A model generated the notes under the pieces. That model was not told the DNA's origin. It did no database searches and was given only the letters and a program-made list of their open reading frames with translations. From Algibacter sp. (lineage in GTDB: Bacteria > Bacteroidota > Bacteroidia > Flavobacteriales > Flavobacteriaceae), in assembly GCF_029245835.1 (NCBI RefSeq), contig NZ_JAQWOO010000032.1, positions 1 through 64,000 on the forward strand: a stretch of DNA of 64,000 bases. The letters are read 5' to 3'. Made by a program: the position numbers and the translations under genes. Shown here piece by piece: positions 26,788 to 62,453 of this stretch (within the stretch, counting starts at the first letter, position 1; the number at the start of each line of letters is the position of its first letter).

Positions 26788-26914
26788 ATGTTATCAAGAA
26801 AGGCAGAGGGATTAGACCCGTTGAAGCCTTAGCAACCCTTTAAACTTATTAAAGAAGGTGCTAAATTCTACTTAAACTACCAATTCATTTATTGGTGTTT
26901 GGATAGATAACCCC
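26788..26914 (+). promoter_or_regulatory. SAM-I (S-box) riboswitch
   Basis: TTATCAAGAAAGGCAGAGGGATTAGACCCGTTGAAGCCTTAGCAACCC...AAGGTGCTAAATTCTA...GGATAGATAA; S-box core, upstream of a methionine gene. Confidence 0.88.
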
Positions 26915-27025: not shown

Positions 27026-28300
27026 ATGAGCGATCAAAAATTAGCAACAAACGCATTACACGCAGGACATGATGTAGCAGCAAACGGTGGAACAAGAGCT
27101 GTACCAATTTATCAAACAACATCATATGTTTTTAACAACTCAGACCATGCGGCAAACCTGTTTTCATTACAAGAATTAGGATTTATTTATACCCGTTTAA
27201 ACAATCCAACAAACCAAATTTTACAAGATCGTTTAGCAGCTGTTGAAGGCGGAATTGGCGCGGTAGTTTTTGCGTCTGGAACAGCAGCGATTTCAACAGG
27301 ATTATTAACGTTATTAAAAGCAGGAGACCATATTGTAGCGTCAAGTAGCTTGTACGGAGGCACATACAATTTGTTAAGTGTAACCTTACCAAGATTTGGT
27401 ATTACAACAACCTTTGTAGATGCTTCAAACCCAGATAACTTTTCGGCAGCAGTGCAAGATAATACAAGAGCATTTTTTGTAGAATCTTTAGGGAATCCTA
27501 AATTAGATGTTTTAGATTTAGAAGCTATTGCAGAACATTCAAAAGCAGCAGAAGTGCCTTTTATAGTCGATAATACAGTGGCTACACCAGCATTGTTAAA
27601 TCCAATTAAGCATGGAGCAAACATTGTAATACACTCATTAACTAAATATATTGGCGGCCAAGGAACATCTCTTGGGGGTGCTATTATTGATGCAGGTACT
27701 TTTAATTGGGCAAACGGAAAATTCCCAGAATTTACAGAGCCATCTGCTGGTTACCACGGGTTAAAATATCATGATGTATTAGGTGCAGCATCTTTTACTT
27801 TCAAATTAATTTTAGAAGGTTTAAGAGATTTTGGAGGCGCTATAAGTCCAACAAATGCTTTCAATATTATCCAAGGTTTAGAGACGTTGCCAGTTAGAAT
27901 TAAACAACATAGTGAAAATGCTTTAGAAATAGCAACATGGTTGGAAGCGCAAGATGAAATAGCTTGGGTAAACTATCCAGGATTAAAAAGTAGTAAATAC
28001 AATGCCTTGGCAAACAAATATTTACCAAAAGGTCAAAGTGGTATCGTAACTTTTGGACATAAAGGCGGTTTTGATGCTGCTAAAAAAATAGCTGATAACA
28101 CTAAGTTGTTTTCATTGTTAGCCAATATTGGAGATACTAAATCTTTAATTATTCACCCAGGAAGTACAACACACCAACAATTAGATGAAGCAGAACAAGC
28201 TTCAGCAGGTGTGTCTGGAGATTTAATTCGTTTATCCGTGGGTATTGAAGATATTGACGATTTGAAAGCGGATTTGAAGCAAGCGTTCGCAACGATATAA
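27026..28300 (+). CDS. O-acetylhomoserine sulfhydrylase
   Basis: ATNALHAGHDVAANGGTRAVPIYQTTSYVF; PLP-type Cys/Met family; 424 aa. Confidence 0.9.
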   Translation: MSDQKLATNALHAGHDVAANGGTRAVPIYQTTSYVFNNSDHAANLFSLQELGFIYTRLNNPTNQILQDRLAAVEGGIGAVVFASGTAAISTGLLTLLKAGDHIVASSSLYGGTYNLLSVTLPRFGITTTFVDASNPDNFSAAVQDNTRAFFVESLGNPKLDVLDLEAIAEHSKAAEVPFIVDNTVATPALLNPIKHGANIVIHSLTKYIGGQGTSLGGAIIDAGTFNWANGKFPEFTEPSAGYHGLKYHDVLGAASFTFKLILEGLRDFGGAISPTNAFNIIQGLETLPVRIKQHSENALEIATWLEAQDEIAWVNYPGLKSSKYNALANKYLPKGQSGIVTFGHKGGFDAAKKIADNTKLFSLLANIGDTKSLIIHPGSTTHQQLDEAEQASAGVSGDLIRLSVGIEDIDDLKADLKQAFATI

Positions 28301-28361: not shown

Positions 28362-31300
28362 TTGAAATATCCATTACAACACATCATTTTAAAAGATTTC
28401 ACGACCCAAAATGGTGTGCTTAATTCTGAAATAAAGTTAAGTTATCAAGTTTTTGGTAAACCCTTAGGACATGCACCAATAGTTTTGGTAAACCATGCAC
28501 TAACAGGGAACAGTGATGTTGCCGGAGATGATGGCTGGTGGAAAGATTTGGTAGGCGATGATAAGGTTATAGATACAAAAATCTATACCGTTTTAGCATT
28601 CAATATTCCGGGTAATGGTTTTGATGGATTTGTAATTGATAATTATAAAGATTTTGTGGCTCGAGATGTTGCAGAACTCTTTTTGAAAGGATTAAAAGAA
28701 TTAAATACAGGTAAGGTATTTGCTGCTATAGGCGGTTCTTTAGGTGGTGGAATAGCTTGGGAAATGGCAGTTCTAAAACCTGATTTTACAGAGCATTTAG
28801 TAGTTGTTGCTACCGATTGGAAATCGACAGACTGGTTAATTGCCAATTGTCAAATTCAAGAGCAATTCCTGTTAAATTCCAAACATCCAGTGCATGATGC
28901 TAGAATGCATGCTATGTTATGTTACCGCACTCCAGAGTCTTTCAAAGAGCGTTTTAAACGTTCTAAAAATGATGATTTAGAGATTTTTAATGTGGAAAGC
29001 TGGTTGTTGCATCATGGTAAAAAACTGCAAGAGCGTTTTCAATTATCGGCTTACAAGTTGATGAATCAGTTATTAAAGTCTATAGATGTTACAAAAGGCA
29101 GGTCGAGTAATTTTAATGTACTTGAAAATATAGAAGCTAAAATTCATATCGTTGGTGTAGATTCTGATTTATTTTTTACGGCAGAAGAAAATAGAGAAAC
29201 TCACAAACAGTTGGCGTTAACCCACCCTAATGTTACCTATAATGAAATTCATTCGGTACATGGGCATGATGCTTTTTTAATGGAATACGAACAACTCGAA
29301 AAAATTATAGAAGGCATTTTTGTGCCACATTCTAAAAGAAAACCTATGAAAGTATTAAAATTTGGAGGCAAATCTTTAGCCAACGGAAAAGGCTTGAGCA
29401 CGGTGCTTTCAATAATTAAAAATAAGGTAAATGATGGAGAGCGATTAAGTATTGTTGTTTCAGCAAGAGGTTCTGCTACCAATGATTTAGAAGTTATTCT
29501 GAATAAAGCTTTAAAAGGCGAGTCTTATAAAGAAGACCTAGAAACGTTTAAAAAATATCAAATTGAACCTTTAAAAAGCATCGATTTTTATGAAGAATTT
29601 TCAACCTTAGATAAGTTATTTGAAGGCGTTAGTTTACTTCGCGATTATAGTAAAAAAACAAAAGATAATATTTTAGCGCAAGGCGAATTATTATCCGTGA
29701 AACTCATTGCTAGTTTGTTAAACCAGCTGGGTATAAAAGCCAATGCAACAGATGCTCGGATATTTATTAAAACGGATGAAACTTTTGGTAATGCACAGCC
29801 TTTATCAAAAATATCAAAAGAAAACACACAAGCTTATTTTAGTAAAAATAAAGACACTATTAATGTCGTTACAGGTTTTATTGCTTCAAATTTAAAAGAC
29901 GAAACAACCACCTTAGGAAGAAATGGTAGTAACTATACAGCCGCTTTATTGGCTAATTTCTTAGATGCTGAAGAATTACAAAACTACACACACGTAAGTG
30001 GTATATATACTGCAGATCCTGTTTTAGTTCCGGACGCTAAACAAATTAGAGAATTATCATTTAGTGAAGCCAATGAATTAGCCAATTTTGGGACCTCTGT
30101 ATTACATGCAAAAACTATAATTCCTTTAGTTGAAAAGAATATCAACCTACGTATTTTGAATACGTTTAATGCAGATGATAAAGGCACCTTAATAACAGCA
30201 AAACCAAGTACTAAAGAGGTAACATCATTATCTATTTTAGACAATGTAGCGTTGCTGAACCTTGAAGGTCGAGGTTTACTTGGAAAGATTGGTGTGGATG
30301 CTAGAATATTTGGTGCATTAAGCAAATATGGCATTAGTGTAAGTATCGTGTCTCAAGGTTCTTCAGAACGAGGCATCGGTTTAATTATTGATGCAGACCA
30401 AGCAAATCAAGCCGTTATTGCTTTAGAGCGTGAGTTTGAAAGTGATTTTTATTCTCAAGATGTGAATAAAATTGCTGTGATTGATGACGTAGCGGTAATT
30501 TCTATTATTGGAATTGAACTGAGTTCATTTCATAAACCATTTAATGCCTTAATTAAAAATCAAATCACACCATTACTTTTTAATAATACCGTTACTGGAA
30601 AGAATGTGAGTTTGGTGGTTAAAAAATCGCAATTACATAAGGCTGTAAATGTGATTCATGGTGAAGTATTCGGGATTTCTAAAAAGATAAATATTGCTAT
30701 TTTTGGACACGGTGGTGTTGGTGGCGCTTTAATAAATCAAATTTTAAAATCGAAAGACGATATTGAGAAACGCAAAGGGATTAACTTAAATGTTTTTGCT
30801 ATTGCAAATTCTAAAAAACTGATTTTAAATAAAAATGGTGCTGATGCAAACTGGGAAGATGCTATAAAATACAGTGCGTACGAAAGTGCTATCGATGATA
30901 TTATTACCTATGCGAAGAACCACCATTTAGAAAACTTAATTGCGGTAGATAATACAGCGAGTTCAGAATTTTACCAGAATTATATTCCTTTAGTTGAAGC
31001 TGGTTTTGATTTAGTATCCTCTAACAAAATAGCGAATACTATTTCTCATGATTTTTACAAAGAATTACGAGTTCAATTAAAAGAAAATAATAAGCAGTAT
31101 TTATATGAAACTACGGTTGGCGCAGGATTACCGTTAATTGATACCATTAAATTGTTACATGAATCTGGAGAGAATATTACTAGAATTCGTGGTGTATTCT
31201 CTGGAACATTAAGTTATTTATTCAATAATTTTTCGGTTGAAGACAAGCCGTTTAGCGAAATTATTCAAGAAACTGTTGATAAAGGTTTTACAGAACCAGA

Positions 31301-31760
31301 CCCACGTGAAGATTTTTCAGGAAATGATGTAGCTAGAAAGCTTTTAATTCTTGCAAGAGAGTTAGATTTGCAAAATGAATTTGAAGATGTTGAGGTGTTG
31401 AATTTAATACCTGAAGCATACAGAGCTATTTCAGTTGAAGATTTTTTATCGCAATTGCATGTTTTAGACGACCAATATCAGAAGATAAAAGACGACCAAA
31501 AAGAGGGGCATGTGCTAAGGTATGTGGGCGATTTATCGGGAGATTTGTCACAAGAAAAAGGACGTTTAGAAGTGAAATTAGTTTCCATTCCAGAAGATAG
31601 TACGTTGGGTCATGTAAAGGGGTCTGATGCTATTTTTGAAATATTTACAGAAAGTTATGGGGAACAACCTATTGTGATTCAAGGTGCTGGAGCTGGGGCA
31701 GAAGTAACAGCAAGAGGCGTTTTTGGAGATATTTTGAGGTTGAGTAAGCATATTAATTAA
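28362..31760 (+). CDS. homoserine O-acetyltransferase / aspartokinase / homoserine dehydrogenase trifunctional fusion (TTG start)
   Basis: MetX-like LVNHALTGNSDV...GGSLGGGIAWEMA; aspartokinase MKVLKFGGKSLANGKGL; HSD NIAIFGHGGVGGALINQI, SGTLSYLFNNF. Confidence 0.88.
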   Translation: MKYPLQHIILKDFTTQNGVLNSEIKLSYQVFGKPLGHAPIVLVNHALTGNSDVAGDDGWWKDLVGDDKVIDTKIYTVLAFNIPGNGFDGFVIDNYKDFVARDVAELFLKGLKELNTGKVFAAIGGSLGGGIAWEMAVLKPDFTEHLVVVATDWKSTDWLIANCQIQEQFLLNSKHPVHDARMHAMLCYRTPESFKERFKRSKNDDLEIFNVESWLLHHGKKLQERFQLSAYKLMNQLLKSIDVTKGRSSNFNVLENIEAKIHIVGVDSDLFFTAEENRETHKQLALTHPNVTYNEIHSVHGHDAFLMEYEQLEKIIEGIFVPHSKRKPMKVLKFGGKSLANGKGLSTVLSIIKNKVNDGERLSIVVSARGSATNDLEVILNKALKGESYKEDLETFKKYQIEPLKSIDFYEEFSTLDKLFEGVSLLRDYSKKTKDNILAQGELLSVKLIASLLNQLGIKANATDARIFIKTDETFGNAQPLSKISKENTQAYFSKNKDTINVVTGFIASNLKDETTTLGRNGSNYTAALLANFLDAEELQNYTHVSGIYTADPVLVPDAKQIRELSFSEANELANFGTSVLHAKTIIPLVEKNINLRILNTFNADDKGTLITAKPSTKEVTSLSILDNVALLNLEGRGLLGKIGVDARIFGALSKYGISVSIVSQGSSERGIGLIIDADQANQAVIALEREFESDFYSQDVNKIAVIDDVAVISIIGIELSSFHKPFNALIKNQITPLLFNNTVTGKNVSLVVKKSQLHKAVNVIHGEVFGISKKINIAIFGHGGVGGALINQILKSKDDIEKRKGINLNVFAIANSKKLILNKNGADANWEDAIKYSAYESAIDDIITYAKNHHLENLIAVDNTASSEFYQNYIPLVEAGFDLVSSNKIANTISHDFYKELRVQLKENNKQYLYETTVGAGLPLIDTIKLLHESGENITRIRGVFSGTLSYLFNNFSVEDKPFSEIIQETVDKGFTEPDPREDFSGNDVARKLLILARELDLQNEFEDVEVLNLIPEAYRAISVEDFLSQLHVLDDQYQKIKDDQKEGHVLRYVGDLSGDLSQEKGRLEVKLVSIPEDSTLGHVKGSDAIFEIFTESYGEQPIVIQGAGAGAEVTARGVFGDILRLSKHIN

Positions 31761-34943: not shown

Positions 34944-35325
34944 CTATAAGTTCTGTTAATAAAATACAAATTCACTAAATTAGGAATAGAAAGGTTTATT
35001 TGTCTATTCTTAAAATGACTGTTACAAAACTAGTATGTTCACTGTCTTTCAAATATGAGAATTGTTAGTTTTTTTGTTTTTTTTTTTTTTTTCAGATTTA
35101 TATGTAAGTTTTTTAACTAAAGTTTTACTGATGTAAAAAGCCTATCATCGATGCAAAAGAAATGATTTAAACCTAAGTTTTGATTAGGTGGTATTTCAAT
35201 AATGTGTTTTTTTATGGTTTAGATAAGTGGATACTTAGTGAATAATTTTTAGAATACTGGTTTTTAATAAATTATAAGTTTTTGTAAAACTAATAGCACT
35301 CCACTAAAATACTTATATTAGCATC

Positions 35326-44100: not shown

Positions 44101-44200
44101 TTGGCGGATAGCTGCATTAGGGATTGAAACGGCATCCTTTTTTGACATTAAAAGCAAAAAAGATATAGTGGAAAGCCCGACCCTTTAGGGGAATGCCAAA
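44101..44200 (+). repeat. family C structured element
   Basis: TTGGCGGATAGCTGCATTAGGGATTGAAACGG...GAAAGCCCGACCCTTTAGGGGAATGCCAAA with different internal hairpin (CTTTTTTG...CAAAAAAG). Confidence 0.75.
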
Positions 44201-56946: not shown

Positions 56947-57843
56947 TTATTTTATAGTTAAATCTCTAAACAAACTTTCTAAACTCGTATTCTTTTGATT
57001 CAGTTGCAAAATCTTCAATTGATTATCATGAGCGAAATCAAAAACGTAAGAGCGCATGTCTTCTGAGGTTTTAAACGTTATTTCGTAAACAAAATCGTGA
57101 GTATTCACAACTTTTTTAGCTTTAGGAAGTTTAAGTAAAAAGGCTTCTTCAATACGATAATCGAACTCAACAATCACCACCTGTTCTTTTTCATCTCTAA
57201 GGTCTTTCAGTTTTTTATCGGCAACTATTTCACCTTTATTTATTATGATAACGCGGTCGCACATCGCTTCAACCTCTTGCATGATATGTGTTGAAAGAAA
57301 TACCGTTTTTGTTTTTCCTATGGATTTGATAAGATTTCTAATGTCTACTAATTGGTTTGGATCTAAACCTGTAGTTGGTTCATCTAAAATTAAAACTTCA
57401 GGATTGTGTAATAAGGCAGTTGCTAAACCCACCCGCTGACGATAGCCTTTTGAGAGTTGACTAATTTTTTTGTGAGCTTCTGGAGTTAAGCCCGTTAATT
57501 CAACAACGTCATCAATACGTTGCTTACTTACTCCATATATTTTTGCGTTAAATGCTAAATACTCTTTAACATAGTGTTCTAAATATAAAGGATTGTGCTC
57601 TGGAAGGTAGCCAACGCTTTGTTGTACTTCTTTTGAATTGGTATCTACATGATAACCATTTACTTTGGCATGTCCTTCATTAACCTTTAAGTAGGTGGTT
57701 AAAATCTTCATCATTGTTGATTTTCCTGCACCATTCGGACCTAAAAAACCAACAATTTCTGGTTTGTCAATTTTAAAAGATACCTTGTTTAAGGCTCTTT
57801 GATTGCCATAAATTTTTGATACCCCTTCAACTTCAATAGACAT
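56947..57843 (-). CDS. gldA: gliding-motility-type ABC transporter ATP-binding protein
   Basis: GFLGPNGAGKSTMMKIL, SQLSKGYRQRVGLATALLHNPEVLILDEPTTGLDPNQ. Confidence 0.85.
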   Translation of the reverse strand: MSIEVEGVSKIYGNQRALNKVSFKIDKPEIVGFLGPNGAGKSTMMKILTTYLKVNEGHAKVNGYHVDTNSKEVQQSVGYLPEHNPLYLEHYVKEYLAFNAKIYGVSKQRIDDVVELTGLTPEAHKKISQLSKGYRQRVGLATALLHNPEVLILDEPTTGLDPNQLVDIRNLIKSIGKTKTVFLSTHIMQEVEAMCDRVIIINKGEIVADKKLKDLRDEKEQVVIVEFDYRIEEAFLLKLPKAKKVVNTHDFVYEITFKTSEDMRSYVFDFAHDNQLKILQLNQKNTSLESLFRDLTIK

Positions 57844-57949: not shown

Positions 57950-57979
57950 TTTGATTTCTTAAAATAATAATTACTTTAG
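57950..57979 (+). promoter_or_regulatory. candidate Bacteroidetes-type promoter of the pheA operon
   Basis: TTTG at 57950-57953, 18-nt spacer, TACTTTAG at 57972-57979 (near TAnnTTTG). Confidence 0.4.
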
Positions 57980-57995
57980 CCACTCAATTATTACA

Positions 57996-58073
57996 ATGAC
58001 AAAAGGTTATACATATTTTAGCAATTGGTTTTATTTCTTTTTTAGCAAAAGGATCGAGACATTGTATGTGTAA
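57996..58073 (+). CDS. Phe/Tyr leader peptide MTKGYTYFSNWFYFFFSKRIETLYV
   Basis: 25 codons with 5 Phe, 4 Tyr, 1 Trp, cluster WFYFFF; followed by attenuator; not in ORF track. Confidence 0.9.
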   Translation: MTKGYTYFSNWFYFFFSKRIETLYV

Positions 58074-58106
58074 TTTATAACTATAAATTAAAATATGAGT
58101 CTCGAT
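58053..58106 (+). promoter_or_regulatory. antiterminator pairing of the pheA attenuator
   Basis: ATCGAGAC (58053-58060) complements GTCTCGAT (58099-58106); an internal hairpin TAATTTATAacTATAAATTA (58071-58090) lies between. Confidence 0.85.
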
Positions 58107-58125
58107 GAAAATCGAGACTTTTTTT
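58097..58125 (+). terminator. attenuator terminator
   Basis: GTCTCGAT-GAAA-ATCGAGAC perfect stem followed by TTTTTTTG. Confidence 0.92.
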
Positions 58126-58181: not shown

Positions 58182-59009
58182 TTGATAAAAACAGTAGCTA
58201 TACAAGGTGTAAAAGGATCATTCCATCACATAGTGTCTCAGGAGTTTTTTAATAAACCTGTTGATTTTATTGAGTGTATGACGTTTGATAGGGTTGTAGA
58301 TTCTTTAATTACTAAAGAGTGTGATGCTGCTATTATGGCTTTAGAGAATTCTATTGCCGGTTCTATAATCCCTAACTATGCATTAATTGATAAATACGAT
58401 TTACATATTGTAGGGGAACATTATTTAGATATCCAGCATAATTTAATGGTATTACCAAATCAAAGTATTGCGGATATTAAGGAAGTGTATTCGCACCCCA
58501 TGGCGTTATTGCAATGTAAAGAGTTTTTTAAATTGCACCCGCACATTAAATTAGTTGAAGATAAAGATACTGCCGAAGTAGCACAACGGATTCAACAGAA
58601 ACAACTTAATGGTATTGGCGCTATTGCTAGTGTTGCTGCTGCTGAGATTTTTGAGTTAGATATTTTGGCTCGCAGTATTCAGACGATTAAGCATAATGAA
58701 ACCCGTTTTGTAATCGTTAAACGTACAAATTCTGAAGTACCAGAAAATGAAATAAATAAGGCTTCAATGAAATTTGAAGCGAACCATAAACGCGGAAGTC
58801 TCGCTACTATTTTAAATGTAATGAGCGATTGTAAGTTGAATTTAACAAAAATTCAATCGTTGCCAATTGTTGAAACACCATGGAAGTATGCCTTTTTTGT
58901 TGATGTTACTTTTGAAAGGTATGAAGATTTTAAAAAAGCAAAATCGATTATTGAAATTATGGGAGAAGGTTTTAAAGTTTTAGGAGAATATAAAAATGCA
59001 AAGTTATGA
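58182..59009 (+). CDS. pheA: prephenate dehydratase (TTG start)
   Basis: VAIQGVKGSFHHIVSQEFF, ALENSIAGSI, NHKRGSLATILNVM ... LTKIQSLPI ACT domain. Confidence 0.92.
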   Translation: MIKTVAIQGVKGSFHHIVSQEFFNKPVDFIECMTFDRVVDSLITKECDAAIMALENSIAGSIIPNYALIDKYDLHIVGEHYLDIQHNLMVLPNQSIADIKEVYSHPMALLQCKEFFKLHPHIKLVEDKDTAEVAQRIQQKQLNGIGAIASVAAAEIFELDILARSIQTIKHNETRFVIVKRTNSEVPENEINKASMKFEANHKRGSLATILNVMSDCKLNLTKIQSLPIVETPWKYAFFVDVTFERYEDFKKAKSIIEIMGEGFKVLGEYKNAKL

Positions 59010-60151
59010 TTGAGGCAGCTAACAGATTGCAAACGGTGGAAGAATACTACTTTTCAAAAAAATTAAGAGAAGTAAATTTGCTTATTGCAAGTGGTAAGCC
59101 TGTTATTAATTTAGGTATTGGTAGTCCAGATATGCAACCACCAAAAAAGGTGTTATCTGCTATTTCAGCAAGTTTTGAGAATCCTATTGCTCATAAATAT
59201 CAGAGTTATCAGGGGCTTCCAGAACTTAGAAATGCTATTGCTCGTTTTTATAAAACACATTTTTCTGTAAACCTAAGTGCAGGTACAGAGATTTTACCTT
59301 TAATGGGAAGTAAGGAAGGTATTATGCATATTTCTATGGCTTACTTAAATGAAGGCGACGAAGTGCTAATTCCAAACCCAGGATATCCAACATATCAATC
59401 GGTAACCAAATTGGTTGGTGCAAAAGGAGTACTTTATGAATTGGATGCCGCGAACAATTGGATGCCAGATTTTAATGCTTTAGAAAAATTAGATTTAAGT
59501 AAAGTTAAGTTAATGTGGGTTAATTATCCGCATATGCCAACAGGAGCAAAACCTAATAAATTTGTGTTTGAAGAATTGGTTGCTTTTGGAAAACGTCATA
59601 ATATTTTAATTGTAAATGATAATCCATATAGTTTTATATTAAACGATGCGCCTAAAAGTATTTTAAGTGTTGCAGGTGCTAAAGATGTGTGTTTAGAATT
59701 GAATTCTTTAAGCAAAACGTTTAATATGGCAGGTTGGCGTGTAGGCATGGTAGTGGGAGCAAGCGAGCATATTAATAATATTTTAAAAGTAAAAAGTAAT
59801 ATGGATTCGGGTATGTTTTATGGCATACAAAAAGGCGCTATTGAAGCTTTAAAATGTTCAAACATGTGGTTTGCTACATTAAATAATGTGTATCAAGAAC
59901 GCAGAAAATTAGTATGGCAATTAGCCGATGCACTAAATTGTACTTACGATAAGGAAGCTTCGGGACTTTTTGTTTGGGCAAAATTACCAGCATATTTAAA
60001 GTCTGAAGAGTTTATAGATTTAGTACTGAAAGAGAACCATATTTTTATTACACCTGGAACCATTTTTGGAACTAAAGGTGAAGGTTATATTAGGTTTTCT
60101 TTATGCGCATCAACAGAAGCTTTGGAGGAAGCGATAGCAAGAGTTACATAG
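59006..60151 (+). CDS. class I/II aminotransferase (aromatic pathway)
   Basis: INLGIGSPDMQPP, NPGYPTYQSVTKLVGA, SLSKTFNMAGWRVGMVVG. Confidence 0.9.
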   Translation: MIEAANRLQTVEEYYFSKKLREVNLLIASGKPVINLGIGSPDMQPPKKVLSAISASFENPIAHKYQSYQGLPELRNAIARFYKTHFSVNLSAGTEILPLMGSKEGIMHISMAYLNEGDEVLIPNPGYPTYQSVTKLVGAKGVLYELDAANNWMPDFNALEKLDLSKVKLMWVNYPHMPTGAKPNKFVFEELVAFGKRHNILIVNDNPYSFILNDAPKSILSVAGAKDVCLELNSLSKTFNMAGWRVGMVVGASEHINNILKVKSNMDSGMFYGIQKGAIEALKCSNMWFATLNNVYQERRKLVWQLADALNCTYDKEASGLFVWAKLPAYLKSEEFIDLVLKENHIFITPGTIFGTKGEGYIRFSLCASTEALEEAIARVT

Positions 60152-60252: not shown

Positions 60253-61104
60253 ATGAAAAATATATACGCCATAGGAGTTGGATTAATAGGAGGAAGTCTT
60301 GCTATTGATATCAAAAAGAATAATCCGGATGTTATTATTCATGGTATTAGTAGAAAAGATGCTACGCTTAATACGGCTTTGGAGTTAGGTTTAATTGACA
60401 AAAAGGCGACTTTAGATGATCTTGGACAAGCTGATTTGGTGATTGTTTCCATTCCTGTTGATGCAACGGTGAAATTATTGCCAACTATTTTAGATAAAAT
60501 ATCTGATACAGGTTTGGTGGTTGATGCAGGGTCGACTAAAGAAGCTATTTGTAAGGCTGTTGAAAATCATCCTAAAAGAAGAAATTTTTTAGCGATGCAT
60601 CCTATTGCTGGAACAGAACATTCTGGACCAACAGCGGCTATTGAAGGTTTGTTTAAAGGCAAAACGAATATTATTTGTGAGGTTGAAAAAACAACATTTA
60701 AGCTTCAAGAAAAGGCATTAAAGTTGTTTACAGATATTGGGATGCGTATTCGTTATATGAATCCTGTAGACCATGATAAGCATATTGCTTATGTTTCCCA
60801 TTTATCACACATTAGTGCATTTATGCTAGGAAAAACGGTAATTGAAAAGGAGCGAAACGAACGTGATATTTTTGATATGGCTGGTAGTGGATTTGCTTCT
60901 ACGGTGCGTTTGGCTAAGAGTTCGCCCGAAATGTGGACACCAATTTTTAAGCAGAATAAGGCTAATGTTGTTGAAACCTTAGAAGAATATATTAGTAATC
61001 TTACTCATTTTAAGGAGTTAATGAAAAATGATAACTTTGACGCGATTTTTAATGAGATGAAAAACACCAACCATATAAAAGATATTTTGAATGGTATAAT
61101 ATAG
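60253..61104 (+). CDS. tyrA: prephenate dehydrogenase
   Basis: IYAIGVGLIGGSLAIDIKK, HPIAGTEHSGP, SHLSHISAFML. Confidence 0.92.
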   Translation: MKNIYAIGVGLIGGSLAIDIKKNNPDVIIHGISRKDATLNTALELGLIDKKATLDDLGQADLVIVSIPVDATVKLLPTILDKISDTGLVVDAGSTKEAICKAVENHPKRRNFLAMHPIAGTEHSGPTAAIEGLFKGKTNIICEVEKTTFKLQEKALKLFTDIGMRIRYMNPVDHDKHIAYVSHLSHISAFMLGKTVIEKERNERDIFDMAGSGFASTVRLAKSSPEMWTPIFKQNKANVVETLEEYISNLTHFKELMKNDNFDAIFNEMKNTNHIKDILNGII

Positions 61105-61105
61105 A

Positions 61106-61138
61106 AGGCTCCACCTAACCTCTCCAAAGGGGAGGAAT
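61106..61138 (-). repeat. family B inverted arm
   Basis: GGCTCCACCTAACCTCTCCAAAGGGGAGGAA. Confidence 0.75.
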
Positions 61139-61176
61139 GGTTTGCGCAAAATTACTCTGAATATGTTTGGAGTATG

Positions 61177-61209
61177 AGTTCCCCTCCTTGGAGGGGTTAG
61201 GGGTGGGTT
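61177..61209 (+). repeat. family B repeat
   Basis: AGTTCCCCTCCTTGGAGGGGTTAGGGGTGGGTT. Confidence 0.7.
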
Positions 61210-61302
61210 TTTGCGTTAGGGATTGAACGGCATGTTTGAGCTCCCCGACTTTTTAGGAGGGAGCGAGTAGTGAAAGCCCGACCCTTGTGGTAACGCCCAA
61301 AT
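61210..61302 (+). repeat. family C structured element
   Basis: TTGCGTTAGGGATTGAACGGCATGTTTGAGCTCCCCGACTTTTTAGGAGGGAGCGAGTAGTGAAAGCCCGACCCTTGTGGTAACGCCCAAA. Confidence 0.82.
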
Positions 61303-61370: not shown

Positions 61371-62453
61371 ATGGAAAACACAAAAAAAATGAGAACCTGG
61401 TTAGATGATTTAAACTTAGATCATCCGTTAGTAATAGCAGGTCCGTGTAGCGCAGAAACTGAAGAGCAAGTATTAAAAATTGCTCACGAATTGAAGGATA
61501 CCGATGTAAGCTATTTTAGAGCTGGGATTTGGAAACCAAGAACACGTCCAGGGAATTTTGAAGGTGTTGGAGCATTAGGCTTAAAATGGTTGCAAAAAGT
61601 AAAGGCAGAAACGGGAATGAAAGTGTGCACGGAAGTTGCCAATGCCGCCCACGTAAAATTAGCTTTAGAGCATGATATTGATTTATTATGGATTGGTGCA
61701 CGTTCTACAGTGTCTCCTTTTATCATGCAAGAGATTGCTGAAGCTTTAAAAGGTACAGATAAACCTGTTTTAGTTAAAAATCCAGTGAATCCAGATTTAG
61801 CCTTATGGTTAGGTGGTATTGAAAGAATTTATAGTTCTGGAGTTAAAAATATAGGGGCTATCCATAGAGGGTTTTCTACTTATGCAAAAACAAAGTATCG
61901 TAATACTCCAGAATGGCAATTAGCAATTGAGTTTCAAAATAAATATCCTGATATTCCTTTAATTAACGATCCGTCGCATATTACTGGTAAGAGAGATATG
62001 ATTCACGAAGTGTCTCAGGAGGCTTTAGATTTAAATTTTGATGGCTTGATGATTGAAACACATTACGATCCGGATAATGCTTGGAGTGATGCTGCACAAC
62101 AGGTTACACCTGCTACTTTAGTTCAAATTATGAAAGATTTAAAAATTAGAAAAGAAAGTAATTCTGAGGAGGAATATACAAAAACGTTGAATACCTTAAG
62201 AGCTCAGATTGATGTAGTAGATAATCAGATTATCGATTTACTAGGTAAGCGTATGCAAGCTGCTGATGGAATTGGCGAACTCAAGAAAAGTAAAAATGTT
62301 GCTGTTTTACAATCTAAACGTTGGAACGAGATATTAGGTAAAATGGTTTTAGAGGGAGAGCAACATGGCTTAAGTGAAGAGTTTATCTTGAGAATGTTTA
62401 AAGCGGTTCATCAAGAATCGATTAATCATCAAGAGAAAGTAATTAATGGATAG
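61371..62453 (+). CDS. DAHP synthase / type II chorismate mutase fusion
   Basis: PLVIAGPCSAETEEQVL, AIHRGFSTY, NDPSHITGKRD; C-terminal LNTLRAQIDVVDNQIIDLLGKRMQAADGIGELKK. Confidence 0.92.
   Translation: MENTKKMRTWLDDLNLDHPLVIAGPCSAETEEQVLKIAHELKDTDVSYFRAGIWKPRTRPGNFEGVGALGLKWLQKVKAETGMKVCTEVANAAHVKLALEHDIDLLWIGARSTVSPFIMQEIAEALKGTDKPVLVKNPVNPDLALWLGGIERIYSSGVKNIGAIHRGFSTYAKTKYRNTPEWQLAIEFQNKYPDIPLINDPSHITGKRDMIHEVSQEALDLNFDGLMIETHYDPDNAWSDAAQQVTPATLVQIMKDLKIRKESNSEEEYTKTLNTLRAQIDVVDNQIIDLLGKRMQAADGIGELKKSKNVAVLQSKRWNEILGKMVLEGEQHGLSEEFILRMFKAVHQESINHQEKVING

Follow-up and report, generated by a model that had tools for sequence, protein, structure and literature searches.

A conserved aromatic leader and terminator as the probable attenuator of the pheA operon in Algibacter sp. 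and other Flavobacteriaceae

INTRODUCTION

Attenuation by a leader peptide is a textbook mechanism, most known cases of which come from Proteobacteria and Actinobacteria. The Bacteroidota, to our knowledge, initiate translation without Shine-Dalgarno sequences. Is the pheA operon of the marine flavobacterium Algibacter sp., in which a short, strongly aromatic ORF and a terminator precede the first structural gene, controlled by ribosome-mediated attenuation, and which amino acids would such a leader report? An earlier note, made from the sequence of this locus alone, had proposed a complete Phe/Tyr attenuator whose antiterminator and terminator exclude each other, had named conservation of the mini-ORF and of a duplicated terminator arm in relatives as the check, and had thought such control little described in Bacteroidetes.

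The attenuation principle is old, and the pheA locus was already flagged in 2021. A study of Flavobacterium psychrophilum from that year gives strong indications that leader peptides attenuate amino-acid operons, together with a structured 5' element before pheA (and hisG) that is conserved in other Flavobacteriaceae (PMC9723704); its main text contains neither the leader sequence nor the arms, their spacing, the Tyr content, or the reach past the family. In Bacteroides thetaiotaomicron, leader-like small ORFs have been described (PMC7366714). As of 2010, leader peptides were known only from Proteobacteria and Actinobacteria, and Firmicutes were then added in a paper whose main text does not mention Bacteroidetes (PMC2965389). 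The Firmicutes and Actinobacteria leaders share with the present one the principle outside Proteobacteria, perhaps of independent origin, and differ in the genes and phyla concerned. The view that the system is little described therefore stands for its details, since we found no description of the anatomy, covariation, spacing, Tyr codon, or class-wide reach in the literature searched, but not for the pheA element as such; predictions of an earlier date may exist in Lopatovskaya et al. 2010 (cited in PMC4833913).

RESULTS

The operon and its neighborhood

We analyzed a window of 64,000 nucleotides (positions 1 to 64,000 of contig NZ_JAQWOO010000032.1 of Algibacter sp.), in which pheA heads a set of four genes.

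56947 to 57843, minus strand: ABC transporter ATPase gene, upstream of the leader.
58182 to 59009, plus strand: pheA, prephenate dehydratase, TTG start, first structural gene (Pfam PF00800, E 6.7e-56).
59006 to 60151, plus strand: class I/II aminotransferase, likely aromatic (PF00155), overlapping pheA by 4 nt.
60253 to 61104, plus strand: tyrA, prephenate dehydrogenase (NF006307 above cut-off, PF02153, and PF20463).
61371 to 62453, plus strand: DAHP synthase fused to a type II chorismate mutase (PF00793 and PF01817).

The best NCBIfam matches of pheA were prephenate dehydratase models, with scores under their strict cut-offs. The order pheA-aminotransferase-tyrA-DAHP synthase is found in 69/69 relatives with complete flanks, and from this gene content we conclude that the operon supplies both Phe and Tyr and also feeds the common pathway. 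The stretch separating tyrA from the DAHP synthase gene contains, at 61120-61210, a GC-rich element resembling an inverted repeat, with TCCCCTCCTTGGAGGGGTTAGGGGTGGG at 61180-61207; its core has two further copies in the genome.

Anatomy of the leader region

The DNA upstream of pheA contains the following elements, all on the plus strand.

57951 to 57979: putative promoter, with TTG at 57951-57953, an 18-nt spacer, and TACTTTAG at 57972-57979.
57996 to 58073: leader peptide ORF MTKGYTYFSNWFYFFFSKRIETLYV* by translation, with ATG at 57996 and TAA at 58071-58073.
58004 to 58076: 1:2 hairpin, in which segment 1 pairs with segment 2, from the minimum-energy fold of the full leader without a ribosome.
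58053 to 58060: segment 2, ATCGAGAC, a copy of the terminator 3' arm that forms the antiterminator by pairing with segment 3.
58071 to 58090: weak hairpin starting at the stop codon.
58097 to 58125: intrinsic terminator, consisting of segment 3 (GAGTCTCGAT), a GAAA loop, segment 4 (ATCGAGACTT), and a T run, from a pattern scan and folding.

The promoter-like site resembles the Bacteroidota promoter type, TTG...TAnnTTTG, with one mismatch. In most of 35 divergent representatives, TTG-18 nt-TAC(A/T)TTAG lies about 16 to 30 nt upstream of the leader ATG; the median 5' UTR given for F. psychrophilum is 24 nt (PMC9723704).

The leader has 25 codons, 10 of them aromatic (4 Tyr, 5 Phe, and 1 Trp), and the control codons Trp-Phe-Tyr-Phe-Phe-Phe occupy 58026-58043, as first described. 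The duplication of the terminator 3' arm was also confirmed: ATCGAGAC recurs at 58111-58118, and the terminator hairpin runs GTCTCGAT-GAAA-ATCGAGAC over 58099-58118 (GTCTCGAT at 58099-58106), followed by seven T at 58119-58125. The terminator scan reported GAGTCTCGATGAAAATCGAGACTT at 58097-58120 with 10 pairs. By RNA folding, the terminator alone has an energy of -14.3 kcal/mol (z -5.1 versus shuffled sequences) and the whole leader one of -31 kcal/mol (z -3.7). Since the ABC transporter ATPase gene upstream lies on the other strand, there is no other gene reading rightward whose transcription this terminator could end.

Without a ribosome, the minimum-energy fold of the full leader combines the terminator with the long 1:2 hairpin within the ORF. 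The earlier note had missed the latter, so that its attenuator becomes complete only once the 1:2 hairpin is added. It had instead placed a 9-bp hairpin at the stop codon. A hairpin is indeed present there, with 8 bp, a 4-nt loop, and an energy of -2.5 kcal/mol, but it was rejected as a conserved part, its median energy over 155 sequences being -1.0 kcal/mol, and it is probably incidental.

Conservation and covariation in the Flavobacteriaceae

We compared 198 pheA loci, namely 80 from named Flavobacteriaceae or unclassified relatives (Algibacter, Tamlana, Olleya, and Psychroserpens among them), the window's own, and those of other genomes of the genus and family. Two are cut by contig ends, leaving 196 with enough upstream DNA; some genomes were entered twice, and the distinct leader-terminator combinations number 155. 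An aromatic leader and a terminator lie upstream of pheA at 193 of the 196 loci, which bears out the conservation of the mini-ORF and of the arm duplication. At the other three (L134, L177, and L195), no aromatic leader is recognizable despite an orthologous pheA, and these are apparent losses or cases of altered operon structure. Locus L178 is unusual in its distances: leader and terminator are found about 390 to 240 nt before pheA, farther off than at other loci, and something may lie between the terminator and the gene.

Of 152 distinct sequences, 134 form all six core pairs between segments 2 and 3, and 17 form five of the six. A GTCTCG core in segment 3 goes with CGAGAC, or wobble variants of it, in segments 2 and 4, and a GTCCCG core goes with CGGGAC in both; single lineages combine ATCCTG with TAGGAT and CAGGAT or ATCCCG with CGGGAA and CGGGAT. 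Across the 35 divergent representatives, the cognate 2:3 duplex has a mean energy of -12.99 kcal/mol versus -10.22 +/- 0.41 kcal/mol with permuted partners (0 of 10,000 permutations, a comparison that ignores kinship). The peptide encoded by segment 2 is not kept in the same way: owing to a different reading frame, one group translates it as N-E-T and another as T-G, and in some species (L065 and L076), the stop codon precedes the segment. Since segment 2 covaries with the arms, shifts frame, or follows an early stop, selection appears to act on RNA pairing rather than on the peptide. A peptide constraint of the arrest-peptide type was rejected as the main one; the C terminus shifts frame or is lost while the RNA segment stays.

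The spacing is equally constrained. The aromatic block ends with a codon that starts 13 to 14 nt upstream of the segment 2 core in 128 of 134 sequences, and a ribosome covers about 12 nt past the codon that it is reading (PMC4833913). The end of the block would therefore be about the last stall site that leaves segment 2 free, whereas a ribosome at the stop codon would cover it.

Folding states

We folded the 155 sequences in the states expected along the leader. With the ribosome at the stop codon, 3:4 alone forms in all 155; if it is placed in the aromatic block instead and segment 4 is absent, 2:3 forms in 138, in agreement with the mutual exclusion of antiterminator and terminator. Adding segment 4 makes 3:4 the fold of lowest energy for most stalled complexes as well. 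The switch must therefore be kinetic, as in classical systems, and equilibrium energies alone are no test of it, because antitermination mostly appears only before segment 4 is made. When segment 3 is present and segment 4 absent, the equilibrium favors 2:3 over 1:2 in 106 of 155 sequences, so that termination by default would depend on the order of folding. The 1:2 hairpin is clear in the window sequence; its prefix fold reaches z < -2 in 15 of the 35 representatives, in which cognate partners also pair better on average than swapped ones, making its presence across the family moderately supported by these predictions.

Amino acids sensed by the leader

Numbered from segment 2, the aromatic block has the order F(-27) Y(-24) F F F(-15), and 73 of 134 sequences also have W at -30. 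The average leader contains 5.3 Phe, 3.3 Tyr, and 0.8 Trp codons, and a Trp codon occurs in 77% of the representatives. A leader that sensed Phe only, with its Tyr and Trp codons being neutral replacements of Phe or kept for RNA pairing, would fit the abundance of Phe, which is the commonest residue and occupies the positions nearest segment 2, as well as the location of the Tyr codons at 58008, 58014, and 58065 in the 1:2 stem; E. coli pheL, moreover, has Phe codons and neither Tyr nor Trp. Such a leader is harder to reconcile with the Tyr at -24, kept in 124 of 134 sequences even though TAT/TAC and TTT/TTC are one base apart, with the presence of at least two Tyr codons in every representative and likewise in leaders outside the family, and with tyrA lying within the operon in all relatives with complete flanks. 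The fixed Tyr codon and the presence of tyrA in the operon thus favor joint sensing of Phe and Tyr, and we regard sensing of Phe only as possible but doubtful.

Of the proposal that one leader senses several aromatic amino acids, the part concerning Tyr alongside Phe appears well supported by codon conservation and operon content, whereas Trp sensing is weaker and uncertain, its codon missing in 23% of the representatives. Integration by a single leader has precedents, as enterobacterial ilv and thr leaders contain control codons for several operon products (Ile/Val/Leu and Thr/Ile, respectively). The Algibacter leader resembles them in serving multiple products and differs in that these would be Phe and Tyr, perhaps with Trp.

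DISCUSSION

A model for attenuation of the pheA operon

We consider it very probable that this locus is a ribosome-mediated transcription attenuator of the Phe/Tyr operon pheA-aminotransferase-tyrA-DAHP synthase/chorismate mutase, in keeping with the anatomy and conservation described above. A short codon-rich ORF, an intrinsic terminator, an antiterminator that a ribosome can block, and a matching placement of the control codons are all present; these parts, their spacing, their mutually exclusive pairing, their covariation, and their conservation are properties of the DNA itself.

From them we infer how promoter activity, leader translation, stalling, termination, and the amino-acid response would fit together. 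Transcription would start shortly upstream of the leader ATG. With ample charged tRNA-Phe and tRNA-Tyr, the ribosome would reach the stop codon at 58071, its footprint would cover segment 2 (58053-58060), segments 3 and 4 would pair, and RNA polymerase would stop near 58125. When Phe (or Tyr) is scarce, the ribosome would stall in the WFYFFF block, disrupting the 1:2 hairpin and leaving segment 2 free to pair with segment 3 ahead of the synthesis of segment 4; the terminator would then not form, and the operon would be read. If the leader were not translated, the 1:2 hairpin would form first, making termination the default.

Could the 5' region instead be a structured UTR governed by a protein or metabolite, such as a riboswitch, an RNA-binding protein, or a T-box, with an incidental mini-ORF? 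The F. psychrophilum study classes the pheA 5' element simply as an original, structured cis-regulatory element (PMC9723704), and the terminator arm sequence is unusually conserved in the family. We nonetheless hold this to be highly improbable: the distance between the aromatic block and segment 2 is fixed while segment 2 changes frame, and no Rfam family, T-box and riboswitches included, reaches its gathering score at the locus, T-boxes and riboswitches giving no match at the leader even at E values up to 5. T-boxes were likewise not found in 7 Bacteroidetes/Chlorobi genomes (PMC2494555). No NCBIfam model matches the leader peptides.

Elsewhere in the window, the only Rfam matches are a SAM riboswitch and a Flavo-1 RNA. 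The former (26788-26913, 72.8 bits) lies upstream of an O-acetylhomoserine sulfhydrylase-like gene (27026-28300), which is followed by an ORF (28362-31760) that looks by eye like a homoserine acetyltransferase-aspartokinase/homoserine dehydrogenase fusion. The latter (44106-44186, plus strand, 57.3 bits) lies between a thioredoxin/ferredoxin reductase-like gene and a cysE/cysM-like pair, also named by eye.

Even less probable, in our judgment, is translational control of pheA, with the leader acting by ribosome re-initiation or as an arrest peptide rather than on transcription. The C-terminal residues LYV or GLL do recur in parts of the family, yet these residues vary by lineage and are absent where the stop codon is early; in addition, the leader stop codon is 108 nt from the pheA start, and a T run follows the hairpin throughout the family. 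An ordinary constitutive or boundary terminator preceded by a chance ORF in T-rich DNA has a negligible chance of being the answer and is already made very unlikely by the comparison, given the 193/196 conservation, the covarying third arm inside the ORF, the fixed spacing, and the absence of a rightward upstream gene, even though the genome is AT rich and one of the window's two ORFs of 14 to 45 codons in which 7 or more of 9 residues are aromatic is not the leader at 57996 but another at 35055 (none occurred in ten Markov-1 copies of the window).

Ribosome-mediated attenuation, thus retained, invites comparison with the E. coli pheA attenuator (pheL; RF01859 Phe_leader). Both have a short Phe-rich ORF, a terminator before pheA, an alternative antiterminator, and prephenate dehydratase as the first product. 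The Algibacter leader differs in containing 4 Tyr codons and 1 Trp codon beside its 5 Phe codons, where pheL has neither Tyr nor Trp, and in heading a joint Phe/Tyr operon, whereas in E. coli, tyrA lies on the opposite strand from pheA (MG1655 record). At our locus, RF01859 scored 15.8 bits (E 4.5), far under its gathering score of 55, so that no sequence kinship with the enterobacterial Phe_leader is shown.

Distribution and sister leaders

Outside the family, an aromatic leader and a terminator precede pheA at 23 of 37 loci of the order and class, with arms that differ from those of the family (GCCUCG, AUCCCGC, GACCGC, and others); at 20 of the 23, the 2:3 duplex is at least 2 standard deviations better than shuffled ones. 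Leaderless loci outside the family include those with a diverged PheA (family f4), those of reduced genomes of about 0.6 Mb, and seven with an orthologous PheA. A sample of the phylum added leaders at four further loci of the class and at two outside it (L245 and L246), and none at its loci where PheA is of another subtype. Since other PheA subtypes come without it, the leader seems to travel with one PheA lineage.

We also searched the same Algibacter genome for sister leaders at hisG, trpE, and ilvD. A His-rich leader, MTFIQLHHHFHICSQAK, precedes hisG (L239, contig C40), a Trp leader, MKTILNDTWWWCFRN, precedes trpE (L240, contig C2), and an Ile/Val-rich leader, MKKQFLNSICVIVIVNILQR, precedes ilvD (L242, contig C65), each followed by a terminator. 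The ORF of the hisG leader ends in a segment that pairs with the loop and 5' arm of the terminator. The stalled his and ilv transcripts fold a competing stem, and the trp transcript does so only with part of the terminator loop included. On this sequence evidence, Algibacter sp. seems to make general use of ribosome-mediated attenuation.

We are evenly divided on a broader proposal, namely, that one leader integrates two to three aromatic amino acids in the control of a joint operon and is an old Bacteroidota device, whose inheritance alongside one pheA subtype would predate the divergence of the orders of the class and which would have been retained despite the absence of Shine-Dalgarno initiation. 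If this were true, the pheA leader and those for His, Trp, and Ile/Val would together mean that in Bacteroidota the coupling of transcription to translation is close enough for a whole set of classical attenuators. The pheA leader would account for some of the structured 5' elements that are still uncharacterized in flavobacteria, and it leads one to expect leader genes missing from the annotation of many genomes. It also bears on how one leader may report Phe and Tyr jointly and, as a strictly conserved case in the Bacteroidota, would offer a ready test of the coupling between RNA polymerase and the ribosome without Shine-Dalgarno sequences.
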